Positions 24,546-33,958 of a stretch of DNA of 64,000 bases are shown piece by piece; within the stretch, counting starts at the first letter, position 1, and every line of letters begins with the position of its first letter. Below the pieces are notes generated by a model. That model did not search any database, had not been told where the DNA came from, and was given only the letters and a program-made list of their open reading frames with translations. Source of the DNA: Pedococcus cremeus (GTDB lineage Bacteria; Actinomycetota; Actinomycetes; Actinomycetales; Dermatophilaceae); contig NZ_FOHB01000002.1 in assembly GCF_900111375.1 (NCBI RefSeq), forward strand, positions 336,992 to 400,991, read 5' to 3'. The position numbers were made by a program, and so were the translations under genes.

Positions 24546-25367
24546 GTGACCCGCTCGACCGCCCACCACCTGGCCCACCAGCAGCGGCGTCGCGACCACC
24601 GGCGCATGGACCCGGACACCGTGATGCGGCGGGCCGAGCGTCTGCTGGAGACCGCGCACGAGCCGGGCGCCCAGGACCGACGGCAGCGGTGCGAGGAGGA
24701 GGCCGTGGTGCTGACGCTCGAACTGGCCGACACCGTGGCCCGCCGCTACAGCGGACGTGGCATCGAGTACGACGACCTCCTGCAGGTGGCGCGTCTCGCC
24801 CTGGTGAAGGCCGCCCAGGCCTACCGCTCCGGGCCGGGCAGGGGATTCGCGGCCTACGCGGTCCCGACCATCACCGGCGAGGTCAAGCGCCACTTCCGTG
24901 ACTGCGGATGGGCGGTGCGGCCGCCTCGGCGCCTGCAGGAGCTGCGGGTCGCCCTGACCGAGGCGGAGGACCGGCTGACGCAGGAGAGCGGCAGCCAGCC
25001 TGGCGTCCTCGAGGTCGCCGCCGCGCTCGGCGTGGACATGTCCGAGGTCGAGGCCGCACGCGCGTGCGGTGGGGGCTACAGCCTGCTCTCGTTGGAGGGC
25101 ACGGTCGCGCAGAACCGCGCAGCCGACGCCGTGGCGTCCGAGAGCGGGGACTTCGCGCGGTTCGACACCCGTGACCTGCTGAGCCACGCGCTCGACGACC
25201 TCTCACCACGAGAGCTGGGCTTGCTGCGGCTGCGCTTCGTGGAGGAACGCACCCAGGCCGAGATCGGCGCGTCCGTGGGGGTGAGCCAGATGCAGGTCTC
25301 ACGGCTCCTGAGCGGCATCGTCGCCCGGCTCCGCGTCACCCTGCTCGACGCCGACAGCGCCGCCTGA
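24546..25367 (+). CDS. SigB/SigF/SigG-type RNA polymerase sigma factor
   Basis: 273 aa. It has region 2 (GIEYDDLLQVARLALVKA, then FAAYAVPTITGEVKRHFRDCGW), region 3 (VRPPRRLQELR) and region 4 (LSPRELGLLRLRFVEERTQAEIGASVGVSQMQVSRLL). Region 1.1 is absent, as in alternative stress/sporulation sigma factors. Start GTG 24546 follows GGAAGGA. It is preceded by the STAS-ATPase gene, its likely regulator. It is closely similar across regions 2-4 to the sigma factor at 33098, so the two are paralogues. Confidence 0.92.
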   Translation: MTRSTAHHLAHQQRRRDHRRMDPDTVMRRAERLLETAHEPGAQDRRQRCEEEAVVLTLELADTVARRYSGRGIEYDDLLQVARLALVKAAQAYRSGPGRGFAAYAVPTITGEVKRHFRDCGWAVRPPRRLQELRVALTEAEDRLTQESGSQPGVLEVAAALGVDMSEVEAARACGGGYSLLSLEGTVAQNRAADAVASESGDFARFDTRDLLSHALDDLSPRELGLLRLRFVEERTQAEIGASVGVSQMQVSRLLSGIVARLRVTLLDADSAA

Positions 25368-26926: not shown

Positions 26927-27883
26927 TCAGCGTCGGGCACGTTGCGACAGCCAGGCCAGTCCCGTCGCTGCGGCCGCGGTGCCCGCCCCCAGGGGTCGCG
27001 GCCATTGCCGGTCCCAGGGCCCGTGCACGGCCTCACCCGTGGGCTGGGGGTCGAGCACGTTGCCGGGTGTCGCCGGAGCGGCGTCGCGGGAGATGCCGCC
27101 GAGCCGCATGAGGGGGGTCACCAGCAGGTCGTAGGCACCGGGCAGGAGCCGGAAGCCCAGCACCGCAACGGGGTTGCCGAAGCCGACCGACGTCTCGCGT
27201 CGGGGTCGCTCCACGGCCGCCACCACGGCCCGGGCGACCTTCTCGGGGGAGTCGACGGGCGGTGGCGGCCGGCCGTGCCAGCCCAGGTAGGTGCCCGCCT
27301 GCCGGTAGACGGGGGTGTTGACGCCGCCGGGGGAGACCAGGCTCACCGCGATGCCGGGCTCCGAGCGCGCCTCGATCTGCAGGGTGCGCACGAGCCCGTG
27401 CACGGCCCACTTGGCGGTGACGTAGGAGCTCATGAACGGCGTCGCGATCTTGCCCAGCAGCGAACCCACGACGACGAGGGTGCCGCCGCCATGGTCGCGG
27501 AAGTGGTGCAGCGCGGCGCGGGCCGTGTTGACGGTGCCGCCGAGCGTGGTGCGGATCGCGGCGTCGAACACCTCGGCCGGCACGTCCTCGAACCGTCCGT
27601 AGGCCAGCGCGGCCGCCGAGTGCACCACGGCATCGACCCGGCCGAACTGATCGGCTGCCCGCTCGAAGACCGCGTCGACGGCCGCGGCATCGGTGACGTC
27701 GGCTGCCACGACGAGGGTCCGGGCCGTCGGCTCGGCGCGGTGGCAGTCGCGCTCCGCCTCGGCCAGGCTCTCGGGCGAGCGCGCGACGAGCACCACGTTG
27801 GCCCCGCGCGACGCGAGCAGGATGGCGCTGGCGCGCCCCACTCCGCTCGACGCGCCGGTCACGACGACCGTTGTCCCACGCAT
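26927..27883 (-). CDS. Short-chain dehydrogenase/reductase (SDR)
   Basis: 318 aa. The cofactor motif is TGASSGVG (about residues 9-16), the structural motif HSAAAL, and the active-site Ser-Tyr-Lys is in VVGSLLGKIATPFMSSYVTAKWA. The C-terminal 80 residues extend beyond the classical SDR core, as in the DltE-like long SDR group, ending in a weakly hydrophobic stretch. It likely oxidises or reduces an alcohol or ketone with NADP(H). It is the first gene of a pair with rnz and converges with nothing. Substrate unknown. Confidence 0.85.
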   Translation of the reverse strand: MRGTTVVVTGASSGVGRASAILLASRGANVVLVARSPESLAEAERDCHRAEPTARTLVVAADVTDAAAVDAVFERAADQFGRVDAVVHSAAALAYGRFEDVPAEVFDAAIRTTLGGTVNTARAALHHFRDHGGGTLVVVGSLLGKIATPFMSSYVTAKWAVHGLVRTLQIEARSEPGIAVSLVSPGGVNTPVYRQAGTYLGWHGRPPPPVDSPEKVARAVVAAVERPRRETSVGFGNPVAVLGFRLLPGAYDLLVTPLMRLGGISRDAAPATPGNVLDPQPTGEAVHGPWDRQWPRPLGAGTAAAATGLAWLSQRARR

Positions 27884-27937
27884 GGCGCCACGCTACGGGC
27901 GGCGTGGCCACAACGCGCGGCCACGCCCGGAGACGCC

Positions 27938-27982
27938 GAGTGGGTCAGGTGGTGGACAGGTGGCGCGTCAGGTGGTGGCTCA
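27938..27982 (-). repeat. Degenerate 12-bp tandem repeats starting at the ubiA stop codon
   Basis: Read leftward, the units are TGAGCCACCACC (27982-27971, containing the gene's TGA), TGACGCGCCACC (27970-27959), TGTCCACCACC (27958-27948) and the start of a fourth, TGACCCAC. The second TGA is in frame with the first. Confidence 0.75.
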
Positions 27983-28792
27983 GGAGCCGAGCACCAGCGC
28001 CGCGACGTCGACCGCCGCGATGCCGATGGCGGCGGCGAAGGGCACCTTGCCCCGGCCGGTGACCGCGACGGCGGCCAGGACGAGGCACAGGGCGAAGGCC
28101 GCCCACGCAACCGGCGACGGAGCACCTGCCGGACCGACCAGCGCGGCTGCGGACGCCAGGACCAGCACGGCCGGCGCGAGCCACCGCACCCACCGGGCGC
28201 CGAGCCGGTGGGGGAGGCCGCGCACCCCGGTCTGCTCGTCGTCCGCAAGGTCGGGCAGCGCGTTGAGCAGGTGGGCGCCGACGCCGAGCAGCGCACCGGC
28301 CAGCACGACCCAGGCCGGCGGCCCCGTCGGTGCGGGCAGCGCGAGGGTGACGACCGCGGGCAGCGCGCCGAACGCCACGGCATACGGCACCGCGGACCAG
28401 ACGGTGCGCTTCAGGCCCAGGTTGTAGGCCCACCCGGAGGCGACCCCGAGCAGGAGGTGCACCGCGGCGGAGGCGAGCCCGCAGGCGAGGGAGAGCAGCA
28501 CGCACAGCACCCCGGCGACGGCCAGCGCCCGGCGCACCACGGCCTCGGTGACCTCGCCGCGCGCGACCGGCTTGTCGGCCCGTCCCACCAGGCGGTCACG
28601 GCCGGCGTCGATGAGGTCGTTGGACCACCCGATGGTGAGCTGCCCGGTGCCCACTGCGGCCGTCACGAGCGCACCCCGGGCCAAGGTGTGGCCGGCGCCC
28701 GCCGCGAGGAGGGCTGTCAAGGTGGTCACGGCCACCGTGGGCCCCGGGTGGCAGGCCCGGGCCAGGCCGGCGAGCTGGCTGGGGCGGGGCAC
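27980..28792 (-). CDS. UbiA-family aromatic prenyltransferase
   Basis: 270 aa with about eight to nine membrane helices. The first Asp-rich motif is NDLIDAGRD (Asn58, Asp59, Asp62, Asp66) followed by KPVARG. The second is NALPDLADDEQTGVRGLP near residue 185. Both bind Mg-prenyl diphosphate in UbiA enzymes, which attach isoprenoid chains to aromatic rings or polyols at the membrane. GTG start at 28792. It is divergent from the type III polyketide synthase gene across 85 bp, so a prenylated polyketide quinone or resorcinol is a reasonable guess at its product. Confidence 0.85.
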   Translation of the reverse strand: MPRPSQLAGLARACHPGPTVAVTTLTALLAAGAGHTLARGALVTAAVGTGQLTIGWSNDLIDAGRDRLVGRADKPVARGEVTEAVVRRALAVAGVLCVLLSLACGLASAAVHLLLGVASGWAYNLGLKRTVWSAVPYAVAFGALPAVVTLALPAPTGPPAWVVLAGALLGVGAHLLNALPDLADDEQTGVRGLPHRLGARWVRWLAPAVLVLASAAALVGPAGAPSPVAWAAFALCLVLAAVAVTGRGKVPFAAAIGIAAVDVAALVLGS

Positions 28793-28877
28793 CCGCCGAG
28801 CCTACGGCCAAGTCCCTGCCGGCACAGTCCGTCGCTTTCAGGCGCGCTCGCGCGTGTTCTGTGCCTAGGGTTGCCGG

Positions 28878-29945
28878 GTGAGCCACCTCGCCGCCGTCGT
28901 CGGTGCCCTTCCGCCCCACCGCTACGCCCAGGCCGAGGTGACCCGGGCCTTCGCCGAGGTCCTCGGCTCGGAAGGCGTCAACCGTGCGGTGCTCGAGCGC
29001 CTGCACGCCAACGCCGGGGTGAGCCACCGGCACCTCGCGCTGCCCCTCGAGCGGTATGCCGCGCTGGCGGACTTCGGTGAGGCCAACGACGAGTTCATCC
29101 GCGTGGCCGTCGACCTCGGTGCCACGGCGGTCGAGAAGGCCCTGGCCGAGGCCGGCCTCACGCCGGCCGACGTCGACCTGGTGGTGTCGACCACGATCAC
29201 CGGGCTGGCGGTGCCCTCGCTGGAGGCCCGGGTCGCGGCGCGCATCGGCCTGCGCGACGACGTCAAGCGCGTGCCGCTGGTGGGGCTCGGGTGCGTGGCC
29301 GGAGCGGCCGGCGTGGCACGGGTGCACGACCACCTGGTGGGCCACCCCGACGACGTCGCGGTGCTGCTGTCGGTGGAGCTGTGCAGCCTGACCGTGCAGC
29401 GCGACGACACCTCCACGGCCAACCTGGTCGCGAGCGGCCTGTTCGGCGACGGAGCCGCTGCGGTCGTCATGGTCGGTGACGCGCGGCGTGACGCGACGAC
29501 GCTCCCCGCCGTGCTCGCCAGCCGCAGCCGGCTCTACCCCGACAGCGAGCGGGCCATGGGCTGGGACGTCGGCGCCTCCGGGCTGCGGATCGTCCTGGGT
29601 GTGGAGGTGCCGGAGCTGGTGCGGGCCAATGTCGGCGACGACGTGCGCGCCTTCCTGGCCGACCACGGGCTGACCCTCGGAGACATCGGCTGGTGGGTGG
29701 CGCACCCCGGCGGCCCCAAGGTGCTCGAGGCGATGCAGGACGCCCTCGAGGTGGAGCGGGAGGCCCTGGGGGTGACGTGGCGGTCGCTCGACCGCATCGG
29801 CAACCTGTCGTCGGCGTCGGTGCTGCACGTGCTGGCCGACACCCTCGCGGACCGGCCGCCGGCACCCGGGAGCCACGGCGTGCTCCTCGCGATGGGGCCG
29901 GGCTTCTGCCTCGAGATGGTGCTGCTGCGCGCGCAGGAGGCCTGA
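28878..29945 (+). CDS. Type III polyketide synthase (alkylresorcinol/alkylpyrone-synthase-like)
   Basis: 355 aa thiolase-fold homodimer type. The catalytic triad is visible: Cys139 in VGLGCVAG, His276 in WVAHPGGP and Asn309 in GNLSSASVL. The conserved near-terminal MGPGF is present. Such enzymes extend a fatty acyl-CoA with malonyl-CoA units to give alkylresorcinols or alkylpyrones. The GTG at 28878 opens a four-gene operon: PKS, methyltransferase, flavoprotein, Idi. The order PKS-methyltransferase-flavoprotein is that of Streptomyces griseus srsABC, whose products are phenolic lipids and quinones. Confidence 0.9.
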
Positions 29946-29949
29946 CGCG

Positions 29950-30477
29950 GTGGCGTCGGAGGTGTGGTTCACGGCCCTGGTGGTGGCGGTCGGCCTGGAG
30001 CGGCTCGCCGAGATCGTCGTCTCGAAAAGGCATGCGGCATGGGCTTTTTCGCGCGGTGGCATCGAGTACGGGCGCCGGCACTACGGCGTGATGGTGGTCC
30101 TGCACACCGCACTGCTGGTCGGCGCCGTCGCGGAGGTGTGGTGGCTCGACCGACCCTTCCTGCCGGTGCTGGGCTGGTCGATGCTGGCGCTGGTCCTGGC
30201 CTCCCAGGCGCTGCGCTGGTGGTGCATCCGCACCCTCGGTCCGCAGTGGAACACCCGGGTCATCGTGGTGCCCGGCCTGCCGCTCGTGAGCCGCGGCCCC
30301 TACCGGGTGCTGCGTCACCCGAACTACGTCGCGGTGGTGGTCGAGGGGGTGGCCCTGCCCCTGGTGCACACCGCGTGGGTCACCGCGGTGCTCTTCACGG
30401 TGCTGAACGCCGCGCTCCTCACCGTGCGGATCCGGGTGGAGGACCGCGCGTTGCAGCCGGAGCCCGTCCGTGCCTGA
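29950..30477 (+). CDS. ICMT-type membrane methyltransferase (SrsB/BpsB-like)
   Basis: 175 aa with about four membrane helices. The isoprenylcysteine carboxyl methyltransferase signature is RGPYRVLRHPNYVAVVVEG (about residues 115-133), which binds SAM at the membrane face. The neighbouring PKS suggests O-methylation of an alkylresorcinol or alkylpyrone rather than of a protein. GTG start at 29950, 4 bp after the PKS stop codon. The 3' end overlaps the flavoprotein gene by 8 bp. Confidence 0.88.
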   Translation: MASEVWFTALVVAVGLERLAEIVVSKRHAAWAFSRGGIEYGRRHYGVMVVLHTALLVGAVAEVWWLDRPFLPVLGWSMLALVLASQALRWWCIRTLGPQWNTRVIVVPGLPLVSRGPYRVLRHPNYVAVVVEGVALPLVHTAWVTAVLFTVLNAALLTVRIRVEDRALQPEPVRA

Positions 30478-31525
30478 CCTCGTGGTGGTGGGCGGCGGAC
30501 CGGTCGGCCTGTCGGCCGCGCTGTATGCCGTCCGCTCCGGTCTGTCGGTGACGGTCCTGGAGCCGCGCACCGGTCCGGTGGACAAGGCCTGTGGCGAGGG
30601 GCTGATGCCGGGCGCCGTCACCGCCCTGGCCGCCCTCGGGGTGGAGCCGCCCGGCTGGGAGCTGCAGGGCATCCGCTACACGAGCGGATCGCGCAGCGCG
30701 GTGGCCGACTTCCCGGCCGGCCCGGGCAGGGGTGTGCGGCGCACGACGCTGCACCAGGCGTTGCTCGACGCCGTGCACGCCTCCGGCGTCGAGGTGGTCG
30801 CAGCGGCGGTCACCGGCCTCGCCCAGGACCCCGACGGCGTGCAGGTCACCACGAGCGAGCCCTCAGGCCTGGCGGGACCCACCCTCCGGGGTAGTTACGT
30901 CCTGGCGGCCGACGGGCTGCACTCGCCGGTGCGGCGACGGCTGGGCCTCGACCGGCAGGCGGCCGCCTCCCGGCGCTTCGGCCTGCGCCGCCACTTCGCG
31001 ACCACGCCGTGGAGCCGGCACGTCGAGGTGCACTGGGGAGCCACCGGTGAGGCGTACGTGACGCCGGTCGGCGAGGACCTGGTCGGGGTGGCGGTGCTGA
31101 GCGCCGCTCGCGTCTCCTACGACGAGCACCTCGCGGGGTTCCCCGCCCTGCAGGAGCGGCTGCGCGAGGCCTCGCCGGCCACACCGGTGCGCGGGGCCGG
31201 CCCCCTCAGGCAACGCGCCGCACGCCGAACGGCGGGCCGCGTGCTGCTCGTGGGTGACGCCAGCGGCTACGTGGACGCCCTGACGGGAGAAGGCATCTCG
31301 CTCGGCCTGGCCCAGGCGCGCGCGGCTGTCGACGCCGTCGCGCGCGACCGCCCCCATGCCTACGAGGCCGCGTGGCGGAGCGCCACGTGGCGGTATGCCG
31401 CCCTCACCCACGCGCTGCTGCTGGCCACGCGGCCCGCGTGGGGTCGCCGGGCGGTCGTCCCCGCCGCGTCCGCGGCGCCGTTCGTGTTCAGGGCGGCCGT
31501 CGCGGAGCTGGGGCGGACCCGGTGA
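30470..31525 (+). CDS. FAD-dependent oxidoreductase, geranylgeranyl-reductase-like
   Basis: 351 aa. FAD-binding GGGPVGLSAALYA is at residues 8-20, with DKACGEGLMPGAV near 40, a loop seen in the geranylgeranyl reductase family. The second FAD motif is VLLVGDASGYVDALTGEGI near residue 258. In the srs-like context it could hydroxylate the resorcinol to a quinone. Its geranylgeranyl-reductase affinity instead suggests saturation of a prenyl chain, which would fit the nearby UbiA and Idi. GTG start at 30470, overlapping the methyltransferase by 8 bp. Confidence 0.83.
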   Translation: MPDLVVVGGGPVGLSAALYAVRSGLSVTVLEPRTGPVDKACGEGLMPGAVTALAALGVEPPGWELQGIRYTSGSRSAVADFPAGPGRGVRRTTLHQALLDAVHASGVEVVAAAVTGLAQDPDGVQVTTSEPSGLAGPTLRGSYVLAADGLHSPVRRRLGLDRQAAASRRFGLRRHFATTPWSRHVEVHWGATGEAYVTPVGEDLVGVAVLSAARVSYDEHLAGFPALQERLREASPATPVRGAGPLRQRAARRTAGRVLLVGDASGYVDALTGEGISLGLAQARAAVDAVARDRPHAYEAAWRSATWRYAALTHALLLATRPAWGRRAVVPAASAAPFVFRAAVAELGRTR

Positions 31526-32133
31526 CCGAGGAGCGGGTGGTGCTGCTCGACGAGACGGGGCGGGCGGTCGGCACGGCACCGAAGGCACAGGTCCACCATG
31601 CCGACACGCCCCTGCACCTGGCGTTCTCGCTGTACGTCTTCAGCGCCGGGGGAGAGCTGCTGCTGCTGACCCGCCGCGCCGCGACCAAGACGACGTTCCC
31701 CGGGCTCTGGACCAACACGGTCTGCGGCCACCCGGGGCCCGGTGAGCCGGTGGGCGCCGCGTCCGCACGCCGGGCTCGCGAGGAGCTCGGCCTCGAGCTG
31801 GCGGCTCCCCGGCTGGTGCTGCCGCAGTTCGCCTACCGCGCCGAGATGGGGGGAGTCGTCGAGCACGAGCTGTGCCCGGTGCTGGTGGTGGAGGCCCCGC
31901 CCGACGCCGTCCCGTCGCCGGACCCGGCCGAGGTGGACCAGACCCGCTGGGTGCGGTGGGCCGACGTGGTGGAAGGGGTGCGCTCGGGCGGGCTGGCGAT
32001 GTCGCCGTGGGCTCGTGAGCAGGTGGGGCAGCTGGCGCGGCTCGGCCCCGACCCGGCGCGCTGGCCCACCGCCGACCCCGCCCTGCTCCCGCCGGCCGCC
32101 AGGGCCGACCAGGTGCCCGGTCAGTACAGCTAG
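31522..32133 (+). CDS. idi: Isopentenyl-diphosphate delta-isomerase, type I
   Basis: 203 aa Nudix-fold enzyme. The active-site Cys is in TNTVCGHPGPGE near residue 68, and the family block SLYVFSAGGELLLLTRRA precedes it. The Nudix-like ARREELG region and VVEHELCPVLV carry the metal and catalytic glutamates. It interconverts IPP and DMAPP. The GTG at 31522 overlaps the flavoprotein stop codon (GTGA), so idi is translationally coupled to the polyketide operon. The 3' end overlaps the convergent PAS-ANTAR gene by 4 bp. Confidence 0.93.
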   Translation: MTEERVVLLDETGRAVGTAPKAQVHHADTPLHLAFSLYVFSAGGELLLLTRRAATKTTFPGLWTNTVCGHPGPGEPVGAASARRAREELGLELAAPRLVLPQFAYRAEMGGVVEHELCPVLVVEAPPDAVPSPDPAEVDQTRWVRWADVVEGVRSGGLAMSPWAREQVGQLARLGPDPARWPTADPALLPPAARADQVPGQYS

Positions 32134-32855
32134 GGCTGGGCGGGTGCACCCCTTCGGATGTGGTGCAGCAGCCCGGGTCGGTCGGTCACCGCGGCCAGGA
32201 TCTCGCCCAGCTTCTCCTGCGGGCGCAGGTGCGCGTGGACCGGGTTGGCGAGCTCGGCGACGACGTAGGCCGCCAGGGCGTTGAGCTTGACGTTGGTGTG
32301 GTTGGAGTAGGCCCTCAGCGCCTGGAATGCCTCCTCCGCGCTCACCCCGTAGGTCGCCATCAGGGCGCCCTTGGCCTGCTCGATCACCGCGCGCGTGGCC
32401 ACCGACCGGGCGATGCCGTCAGCGGTCTCCTGCTCCACATCCCGCCGGAGGGGCACGGTCTGGTCGATGAGGTAGCCCCTGACGGCGATCACGCTGCTGT
32501 TGGACCGCACGCCCTCACCGATGACCACGACGTGCCGCTCCTCCTGCGCGACGGTCATGATGCGGTGCCGGGACGAGAAGGCGGCGCCGTCGGCGAGCAC
32601 GCCCTCGATGGTGCTCCGCAGCCGGGGCTGGTCGTCGGGGTGCACCTGCTCCATGAGCGCCTCGTACGTCGGGGGAGGGTCTCCCGGCACGTGACCGAAG
32701 ACGGCGAGCAGCTGTTCGGACCACCACCAGGTCGCGGTGAGCGCGTCGTAGCGGAAGCGGGCCACCGGGTCGGCCGTCGTCGCGCTGCCCCCGAGGGCCT
32801 CGGGACGTGGTCCCGTCGCGTGCGGGCGCGGTCGGGAGTGTTCCCGGTCGTTCAT
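32130..32855 (-). CDS. PAS-ANTAR RNA-binding antiterminator protein
   Basis: 241 aa. Residues about 35-140 form a PAS domain (ALTATWWWSEQLLAVFGH, HPDDQPRLRSTI). Residues about 165-220 are an ANTAR domain with AVIEQAKGALMATYGVSAEEAFQALRAYS. Such proteins bind dual-hairpin leaders and prevent termination in response to a PAS signal. Start ATG 32855 behind CTCTGGAG; an upstream in-frame extension overlaps the intergenic region and looks non-coding. It is divergent from a stress sigma gene and overlaps idi convergently by 4 bp. Confidence 0.87.
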   Translation of the reverse strand: MNDREHSRPRPHATGPRPEALGGSATTADPVARFRYDALTATWWWSEQLLAVFGHVPGDPPPTYEALMEQVHPDDQPRLRSTIEGVLADGAAFSSRHRIMTVAQEERHVVVIGEGVRSNSSVIAVRGYLIDQTVPLRRDVEQETADGIARSVATRAVIEQAKGALMATYGVSAEEAFQALRAYSNHTNVKLNALAAYVVAELANPVHAHLRPQEKLGEILAAVTDRPGLLHHIRRGAPAQP

Positions 32856-33097
32856 GTGTGGACTCCAGAGATGGTTGACCGGAGCAGCAGCCCCGGACGC
32901 GGTACGCGTTCTCGAAGCGGCTGTCTGCTCAACCAACGGCGGAGTGTAGGCGATGGACGGGGCTCCGCCTGACACCGGAGCGACGACGGCGCGTGCCGCG
33001 TCCTGCGGTTGCGGGTGGGGAGAAGCGGTGCTTGTCTGGCCGGGTACCCCTCGTGGTCCAGCAGCGGCGCCACACTCCTCTCACCGAAGGATGTGCG

Positions 33098-33958
33098 ATG
33101 CCGCCGAACACCACCGCTGTCGCCCCCCTCACCCCCCACCTCGCGGCCGCACCGGGCACTCCGTGGAACGCCGGGTGCCCCGACGCCGTCGAGGAGCTGC
33201 TCGCGCGGATGCGCGGGTGCCAGGACCGGCACCTCCGGGCCGAGCTCGAGGAGGCCGCGGTCGTCCAGAGCCTGCGCCTCGCGGAGGCGGTCGCGCGCCG
33301 CTACGTCGGCCGGGGGATGGAGTACGACGACCTCCTGCAGGTCGCCCGGCTGGCCCTCGTGAAGGCGGTGCGGCGCTACCGTCCCGGGGCGGGGTCCGGT
33401 TTCACGGCATACGCCGTGCCCACCATCGCGGGTGAGGTCAAGCGCCACTTCCGCGACTGCGGGTGGACCGTCCGGCCGCCGCGGCGGCTGCAGGAGTTCA
33501 AGGCCCGGCTCGCGGCGCAGGAGGAGCGGCTGCTCCACGAGCTGCACCGCGAGCCCACCCTGGCCGACCTCGCCGAGGCCCTGCGGGCCACGCCGGCCGA
33601 GGTCACGGAGGCACGGCTGGGCGCCGCCGCCTACAGCGCCTACTCCCTGGACACCCCCACGACCGTGCAGGGTCGGCCGGAGGTGGCAGGTCAGGCGCCG
33701 GACGAGTACGCCGCCCTGGAGATGCGGGAGGCGCTGCGTGGAGCGCTGGCCACGCTGAGCCCGCGAGAGCGCCAGCTGATCCGGCTGCGGTTCGTCGACG
33801 AGCTCACGCAGGCGGAGGTGGGGCGCATCCTCGGGGTCAGCCAGATGCAGGTGTCCCGCCTGCTCGCCGGTGTGCTGCGACAGCTTCGGGCACAGCTGCT
33901 GGAGGACGAGAACGCCGGCCGGGTCCCGGACGAGGGACGCGACCGCCGCAGCGCGTGA
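33098..33958 (+). CDS. SigB/SigF/SigG-type RNA polymerase sigma factor (second copy)
   Basis: 286 aa. It has region 2 (GMEYDDLLQVARLALVKAV, FTAYAVPTIAGEVKRHFRDCGW), region 3 VRPPRRLQEFK and region 4 LSPRERQLIRLRFVDELTQAEVGRILGVSQMQVSRLLAG. It is paralogous to the sigma factor at 24546, with nearly identical core blocks but a different N terminus and a longer C-terminal tail. ATG 33098 with GAAGGA upstream. No anti-sigma gene is adjacent, so it may share the partner at 23461 or respond to the PP2C network. It is divergent from the PAS-ANTAR gene. Confidence 0.92.
   Translation: MPPNTTAVAPLTPHLAAAPGTPWNAGCPDAVEELLARMRGCQDRHLRAELEEAAVVQSLRLAEAVARRYVGRGMEYDDLLQVARLALVKAVRRYRPGAGSGFTAYAVPTIAGEVKRHFRDCGWTVRPPRRLQEFKARLAAQEERLLHELHREPTLADLAEALRATPAEVTEARLGAAAYSAYSLDTPTTVQGRPEVAGQAPDEYAALEMREALRGALATLSPRERQLIRLRFVDELTQAEVGRILGVSQMQVSRLLAGVLRQLRAQLLEDENAGRVPDEGRDRRSA

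Follow-up and report, generated by a model that had tools for sequence, protein, structure and literature searches.

A conserved type III polyketide synthase and UbiA prenyltransferase cluster in Pedococcus cremeus, probably of the agq phenolic-lipid type

The subject of this analysis is a 64,000-nt stretch of the Pedococcus cremeus genome (NZ_FOHB01000002.1; "the window"), in which five genes at 27980-32133 encode a UbiA-family membrane prenyltransferase and, divergently from it, a type III polyketide synthase (PKS), an ICMT-type methyltransferase, a flavin adenine dinucleotide (FAD)-dependent flavoprotein and an isopentenyl-diphosphate isomerase (idi). The cluster is real, conserved and biosynthetic. 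We consider it likely that it specifies a phenolic-lipid pathway of the agq type, known from Actinoplanes missouriensis, in a form that has idi in the operon and the prenyl reductase unlinked. Gene content, gene order, intact catalytic residues and co-occurrence across genomes were observed directly. The five genes are those named in an initial annotation of the window, and their frames are intact; the flavoprotein, which that annotation took for a geranylgeranyl reductase, is probably a ring hydroxylase instead.

Recurrence of the cluster and its UbiA gene

Among named contigs, the best 80 of 89 places encoding a relative of the PKS were retained, with genes called by codon usage; motif counts and trees excluded short or weak rows. 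The same gene order was found again in contigs from many actinobacterial families, and because it recurs so widely the cluster is beyond chance. The nearest loci were those of Terrabacter, Terracoccus, Phycicoccus, Pedococcus and Intrasporangium. Across all 80 loci, the PKS had as neighbours an ICMT gene in 75, the FAD gene in 73, UbiA in 59, idi in 24 and a second flavoprotein, described below, in 25. With 15 short-flank loci left out, the 65 loci having at least 3 kb before and at least 4 kb after the PKS gave 60, 59, 50, 20 and 23, respectively. A plasmid search added two actinobacterial loci without annotated genes in the stretch, from Streptomyces sp. NBC_01237 (with UbiA) and Nonomuraea gerenzanensis (without a UbiA match).

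Co-occurrence was counted in 97 genomes of 80 genera, the window's own included. Matches to the PKS at E 1e-20 were found in 40 genomes, 33 of which were counted as holding a close PKS; the other seven (G027, G063, G067, G078, G081, G094 and G096), with matches of 29-35% identity, were counted as PKS-less. UbiA was present in 27 of the 33 PKS genomes versus 2 of the 64 PKS-less ones (29 in total), a joint table of 27/6/2/62 with a Fisher p of 5.1e-16 that is not corrected for kinship. The two genes lay within 6 kb of each other in 23 of the 27 genomes holding both. For the rest, PKS and UbiA were on separate contigs in G035 and G074, assemblies in hundreds of pieces, and in G065, and ~520 kb apart on one contig in G059; identity to the window's UbiA was only 44-46% in G059, G065 and G074. 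We counted G059 and G065 for the agq-type assignment, UbiA (44-45% identity) being present there though away from the PKS. UbiA was missing from six PKS genomes (G039, G050, G072, G083, G089 and G090), and in G050 and G072 the PKS is at a contig edge. The two genomes with UbiA only were G030, which is 58% complete, and G096, where UbiA stands beside a remote type III PKS (33-35% identity). The initial annotation had joined a PKS, methyltransferase and flavoprotein core to UbiA and suggested co-occurrence in relatives as a check, and for this core and UbiA the counts support the join.

Several loci are of interest in their own right. In G096, locus L158 (G096:C98:1-5793) holds a cluster-type UbiA and the remote type III PKS (33% identity) with one frame between them, and perhaps encodes a different prenylated polyketide. 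Locus L080 (CAJCJE010000320, 9262 bases), from a Candidatus Melainabacteria bin, encodes UbiA-PKS-ICMT-FAD together with a partial second flavoprotein, and its UbiA groups with Pseudonocardiaceae; its place in that bin may reflect misbinning or transfer. The PKS-ICMT-FAD trio is also present in two Planctomycetota metagenome-assembled genomes (MAGs; L090 and L095). Their PKS shares 63-64% identity with that of the window, more than would be expected between phyla, and here too misbinning or transfer could account for it.

The PKS is the sole match of its kind in its own genome at E 1e-5. Its closest solved structure is Mycobacterium tuberculosis Pks11 (411 bits, E 2.1e-122), and its best NCBIfam model, DpgA, scores 198 bits, far under the cut-off of 425. 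The catalytic triad Cys139, His276 and Asn309 is invariant in 87/87 aligned rows. We regard the enzyme as a probable alkylresorcinol synthase.

UbiA retains its motifs NDxxDxxxD and DxxxD without change in 57/57 aligned rows. The predicted model has a mean local confidence (pLDDT) of 96.5, and in fold it comes closest to archaeal UbiA homologues in complex with geranyl diphosphate or dimethylallyl diphosphate (DMAPP). No NCBIfam model was matched over its cut-off, and no MenA model was among the 7 matches at E 0.001. Four other UbiA-family members are encoded in the genome: MenA (L149:5391-6263), heme o synthase, decaprenyl-phosphate phosphoribosyltransferase and one that is weakly chlorophyll synthase-like (L150:4884-5909, contig C9; it reaches the cut-off of none of its listed matches). 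In the UbiA tree these fall outside the cluster proteins, though on very long branches, and the heme o synthase branches off basally to the cluster set at an open fork. An assignment of the cluster protein as MenA, which would have counted against the initial annotation, was rejected, given the missing MenA-model match and the genome's own MenA elsewhere. The enzyme is a dedicated, non-MenA prenyltransferase of the cluster, with a conserved link to the PKS.

An alternative is a cluster of the srsABC/pkqABC type, which would end in an alkylquinone or polyketide quinone without prenylation and have UbiA, idi and the reductase nearby by coincidence. Loci of Mycolicibacterium, Rhodococcus and Planctomycetota do have the PKS-methyltransferase-flavoprotein trio without a UbiA match, and such a trio has been described as polyketide quinone genes in the portion of PMC9927152 available to us. 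We regard this as unlikely for the present cluster, where UbiA tracks the PKS through 27 of 33 genomes and keeps every one of its Asp motifs in all aligned rows.

Two flavoprotein families

The cluster flavoprotein and geranylgeranyl reductase (GGR) are easily confused. TIGR02032 is the best NCBIfam match of the cluster protein, at 122 bits, under the cut-off of 158.8. Three members of its family scored below that cut-off (122, 98 and 120.8 bits), and three members of the second family, found inside the clusters of Jiangella, Streptomyces, Nocardioidaceae, Nitriliruptoraceae, Lentzea and others, scored above it (171.8, 173.2 and 171.7 bits). At the signature site, 75/75 rows of the cluster FAD family have ExYxTP, and 27/27 rows of the second family have YxWxF, which we take to be the GGR mark; the MenJ-like protein of the same genome also shows YxWxF in this alignment. 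A quick tree split the families cleanly (68 vs 26 rows, one change each, SH-aLRT 99 and 92), with the cluster flavoprotein grouping with those of UbiA-less clusters. It is 48-54% identical to four of these, from Rhodococcus (L088), Mycolicibacterium (L094), Planctomycetota (L090) and an Actinomycetales MAG (L103), and only 29% identical to the second-family flavoprotein of its own genome.

Profile searches against the PDB seem to agree with the two-family split, less sharply. The second family's best match was a GGR-type enzyme at 101 bits; the cluster FAD family had the same enzyme as its best, at 69 bits, with PyrE3 and the monooxygenase PnpA close behind. In a fold search with the cluster protein, flavin halogenases and monooxygenases ranked first and a GGR-like structure came at rank 41. 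The fold is common to hydroxylases, halogenases and GGR, so that search does not decide the matter.

Could the cluster flavoprotein itself nevertheless be the prenyl reductase, as the initial annotation proposed? Its best NCBIfam model and top PDB match are indeed of the GGR type, and an alignment of the two flavoprotein families spans most of their length. We consider this very improbable, since the signature is replaced in every row, the protein occurs where no UbiA was found, and a distinct GGR-type gene exists. The tree of the two families, a kind of check that the initial annotation had suggested, sets the cluster protein apart from the GGR-type family, and the candidate was rejected. By sequence comparison, the cluster flavoprotein is best viewed as a monooxygenase-type partner, a probable ring hydroxylase.

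The GGR-type gene of this genome lies ~43 kb downstream of the cluster (G000:C8:412113-413225), outside the window. GGR-type presence was scored at a threshold of at least 50% identity, placed after seeing a gap between 265 and 91 bits, which gave 12 of the 97 genomes; 11 of the 12 also hold PKS and UbiA, and G073 has neither. Counting weaker matches (at most 43% identity), which are probably MenJ-like, the total at E 1e-15 rises to 63 genomes. Among the 25 named loci with a GGR-type gene, 24 have UbiA; in well-flanked loci it was found in 22 of 50 with UbiA vs 1 of 15 without (Fisher p 0.012). We propose the GGR-type flavoprotein as the likely chain reductase.

Locus anatomy, idi and flanking genes

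Table 1. Features of the cluster, with positions in the window
Feature	Position	Strand	Basis
UbiA-family membrane prenyltransferase; probable O- (or C-) prenyltransferase of alkyl-methoxyhydroquinone, AgqD-like role	27980..28792	-	Pfam UbiA, Asp motifs, predicted fold
Divergent intergenic region, UbiA start to PKS start, 85 nt	28793..28877	.	sequence
Type III PKS; probable alkylresorcinol synthase	28878..29945	+	Pks11 match, catalytic triad
ICMT-type membrane methyltransferase; probable resorcinol/hydroquinone methylation	29950..30477	+	Pfam ICMT, linkage to PKS
FAD-dependent monooxygenase-type flavoprotein; probable ring hydroxylase to hydroquinone/quinone; not geranylgeranyl reductase	30470..31525	+	motif, tree, TIGR02032 below cut-off
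idi, type 1 isopentenyl-diphosphate isomerase, GTG start	31522..32133	+	NF002995

Each of the five frames has a GTG start and no internal stops, and third-position GC is 0.92-0.95. The Pfam matches are all over their cut-offs: UbiA 90 bits, chalcone/stilbene synthase C-terminal 70 and N-terminal 66 bits in the PKS, ICMT 99, FAD_binding_3 67 and NUDIX 61 (Table 1). The PKS and ICMT genes are separated by 4 nt, the ICMT and FAD genes overlap by 8 nt, and the FAD stop and idi start overlap by 4 nt. A promoter region shared by UbiA and the PKS, as first annotated, stands as anatomy, in that the divergent starts are 85 nt apart, and goes no further: a sigma-70 consensus scan of 27850-32300 returned 0 sites (0.0 expected from shuffles).

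The idi frame scores 217 bits on NF002995 (cut-off 127) and is the only type 1 match in its own genome at E 1e-10. Its coupling as a fourth gene, another point of the initial annotation, is seen here in the overlap with the FAD gene, but of the 24 genomes holding both idi and the PKS, this one included, only 7 have them within 6 kb of each other, and the linkage of idi does not track UbiA on the PKS tree. We rejected idi as a pathway-specific marker, since 26 of the 64 PKS-less genomes have it and the copy here is the sole type 1 match; its role may just be a general one in the cell. The genome has three genes for prenyl diphosphate synthases, none inside the cluster.

Adjoining idi is a gene for a PAS-ANTAR regulator (32130-32975, minus strand), with a counterpart, L153_3, at 71% in the sister genome G001. 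Beyond it on the 3' side is a sigma-factor gene (33098-33958, plus strand) that scores 218.5 bits on the SigB/SigF/SigG family model TIGR02980, under the cut-off of 234, and on the other flank the frame at 24606-25367 (plus strand) is sigma-factor-like by reading alone. Given these flanking sigma-factor and PAS-ANTAR genes, stress control of the cluster is possible. UbiA is followed, after 96 nt and on the same strand, by a short-chain dehydrogenase/reductase (SDR) gene (26927-27883, minus strand). It was rejected as a regular cluster member: no match stands beside UbiA in the sister genome's L153, and among L031-L110 a match of >40% identity was found only in Lentzea pudingi (L110).

Proposed pathway, known relatives and significance

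The reactions that we infer for the cluster, with their substrates, prenyl length, O- versus C-attachment and all of the product chemistry, are as follows. The type III PKS would condense a fatty acyl starter with malonyl (or methylmalonyl) units to an alkylresorcinol, which the ICMT-type enzyme would methylate and the cluster flavoprotein would hydroxylate on the ring, giving an alkyl-methoxyhydroquinone. UbiA would attach a short prenyl group in the membrane, probably geranyl and probably on oxygen, and the unlinked GGR-type flavoprotein would hydrogenate the prenyl chain. The operon idi might raise DMAPP for the prenyl donor, which is plausible and not specific to the pathway.

The agq cluster was reportedly first described in Awakawa 2011, ChemBioChem 12:439. 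Publications cited here by PMC number were available in part, and what we take from them refers to those parts. The A. missouriensis products are 6-alkyl-4-O-dihydrogeranyl-2-methoxyhydroquinones (PMC3569393). AgqA produces alkylresorcinols, which subsequently undergo prenylation and hydroxylation, and the function of the Actinoplanes lipids is called enigmatic (PMC10896814). The prenyltransferase, given as 'AqgD', O-prenylates the alkyl-methoxyhydroquinone and resembles UbiA (PMC3227686), and there is an in vitro study of a membrane prenyltransferase O-prenylating a small polyketide (PMC4044012). Like agq, the present cluster has a type III PKS for alkylresorcinols and a UbiA-like prenyltransferase, and the hydrogenated prenyl chain of the agq product implies a prenyl reductase. 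In our cluster the operon ends with idi and the GGR-type gene is far off; the agq gene positions are not given in the parts available. One scan of named contigs returned no record labelled A. missouriensis among the PKS relatives. A prenylated meroterpenoid lipid, offered by the initial annotation as not obvious, has therefore been overtaken by the published agq cluster, and agq-like clusters are also annotated in Micromonospora and Salinispora (PMC9967187, PMC9181873).

Comparison with other systems can be made on the same basis. We take the gene order of srsABC of Streptomyces griseus to be PKS-methyltransferase-flavoprotein, and the trio is present here in that order, as the initial annotation had it. 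The pkqABC genes of Mycobacterium smegmatis have the same trio (PMC9927152); that paper also names Trp281 of ArsB as a resorcinol marker. Unlike both, our cluster has a linked, co-retained UbiA prenylation gene; the available part of PMC9927152 does not mention UbiA, idi or GGR-type genes. A cluster of Gephyromycinifex aptenodytis (Dermatophilaceae) likewise has genes for UbiA, a stilbene-synthase type PKS, an ICMT methyltransferase and an FAD oxygenase, all adjacent to one another, but its authors assign it to angucycline biosynthesis, and idi is not mentioned in the part available (PMC8779670). In the loseolamycin cluster of Micromonospora endolithica, the surroundings of the type III PKS losA include genes for a UbiA family protein and a methyltransferase, but with an acyl-CoA dehydrogenase in between and no idi in the passage available (PMC7587189). 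Open-licence literature returned no publication for 'prenylated alkylresorcinol', nor for four of five pathway terms combined, isomerase included.

O-attachment has its own alternative, in which UbiA would C-prenylate the ring to yield a prenylated, redox-active benzoquinone of polyketide origin. Such a product would be a carrier resembling ubiquinone but made from a polyketide rather than chorismate. C-prenylation is what UbiA enzymes do in lipoquinone pathways (PMC3227686), and polyketide quinones are reported as mycobacterial electron carriers and linked to Streptomyces spores (PMC9927152; PMC10896814). We find this improbable, as agq, the characterised relative by gene content, O-prenylates (PMC3227686). 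The UbiA family profile, searched against the PDB up to E 1, also had a single sequence match, to digeranylgeranylglyceryl phosphate synthase (E 0.0018). Digeranylgeranylglyceryl phosphate synthase is an ether-forming enzyme.

Several points weigh against the agq-type assignment. Membership was judged by gene content rather than by alignment to AgqA-D or SrsA-C. The entry name of Pks11 speaks of alpha-pyrones, and the loseolamycin PKS, with a UbiA gene nearby, gave alkylresorcinols on heterologous expression (PMC7587189). The PKS tree offers only 5 independent contrasts, on which the link of UbiA and GGR is not significant. The sister genome G001 has the cluster and no GGR-type match, and 18 of the 29 UbiA genomes are without a GGR-type gene. 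Because of these absences and the non-significant tree link, the reduction step would be optional.

For the agq-type pathway that we favour, the present work documents sets of agq-like genes in genera including Terrabacter, Phycicoccus and Jiangella. It also tells the probable hydroxylase apart from the probable reductase, and it adds the finding that the latter is unlinked in this genome and that idi lies within the operon. A bolder and rather doubtful idea is that, across the Actinomycetota, the PKS core with UbiA, and with the GGR-type gene in some lineages, constitutes another lipoquinone system alongside menaquinone. If so, a polyketide-derived, prenylated, chain-saturated (hydro)quinone would act as a carrier, and an O-prenylated form would be a masked redox pool released under stress. 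Natural genomes with and without UbiA or the reductase exist, and the roles of both are therefore testable.

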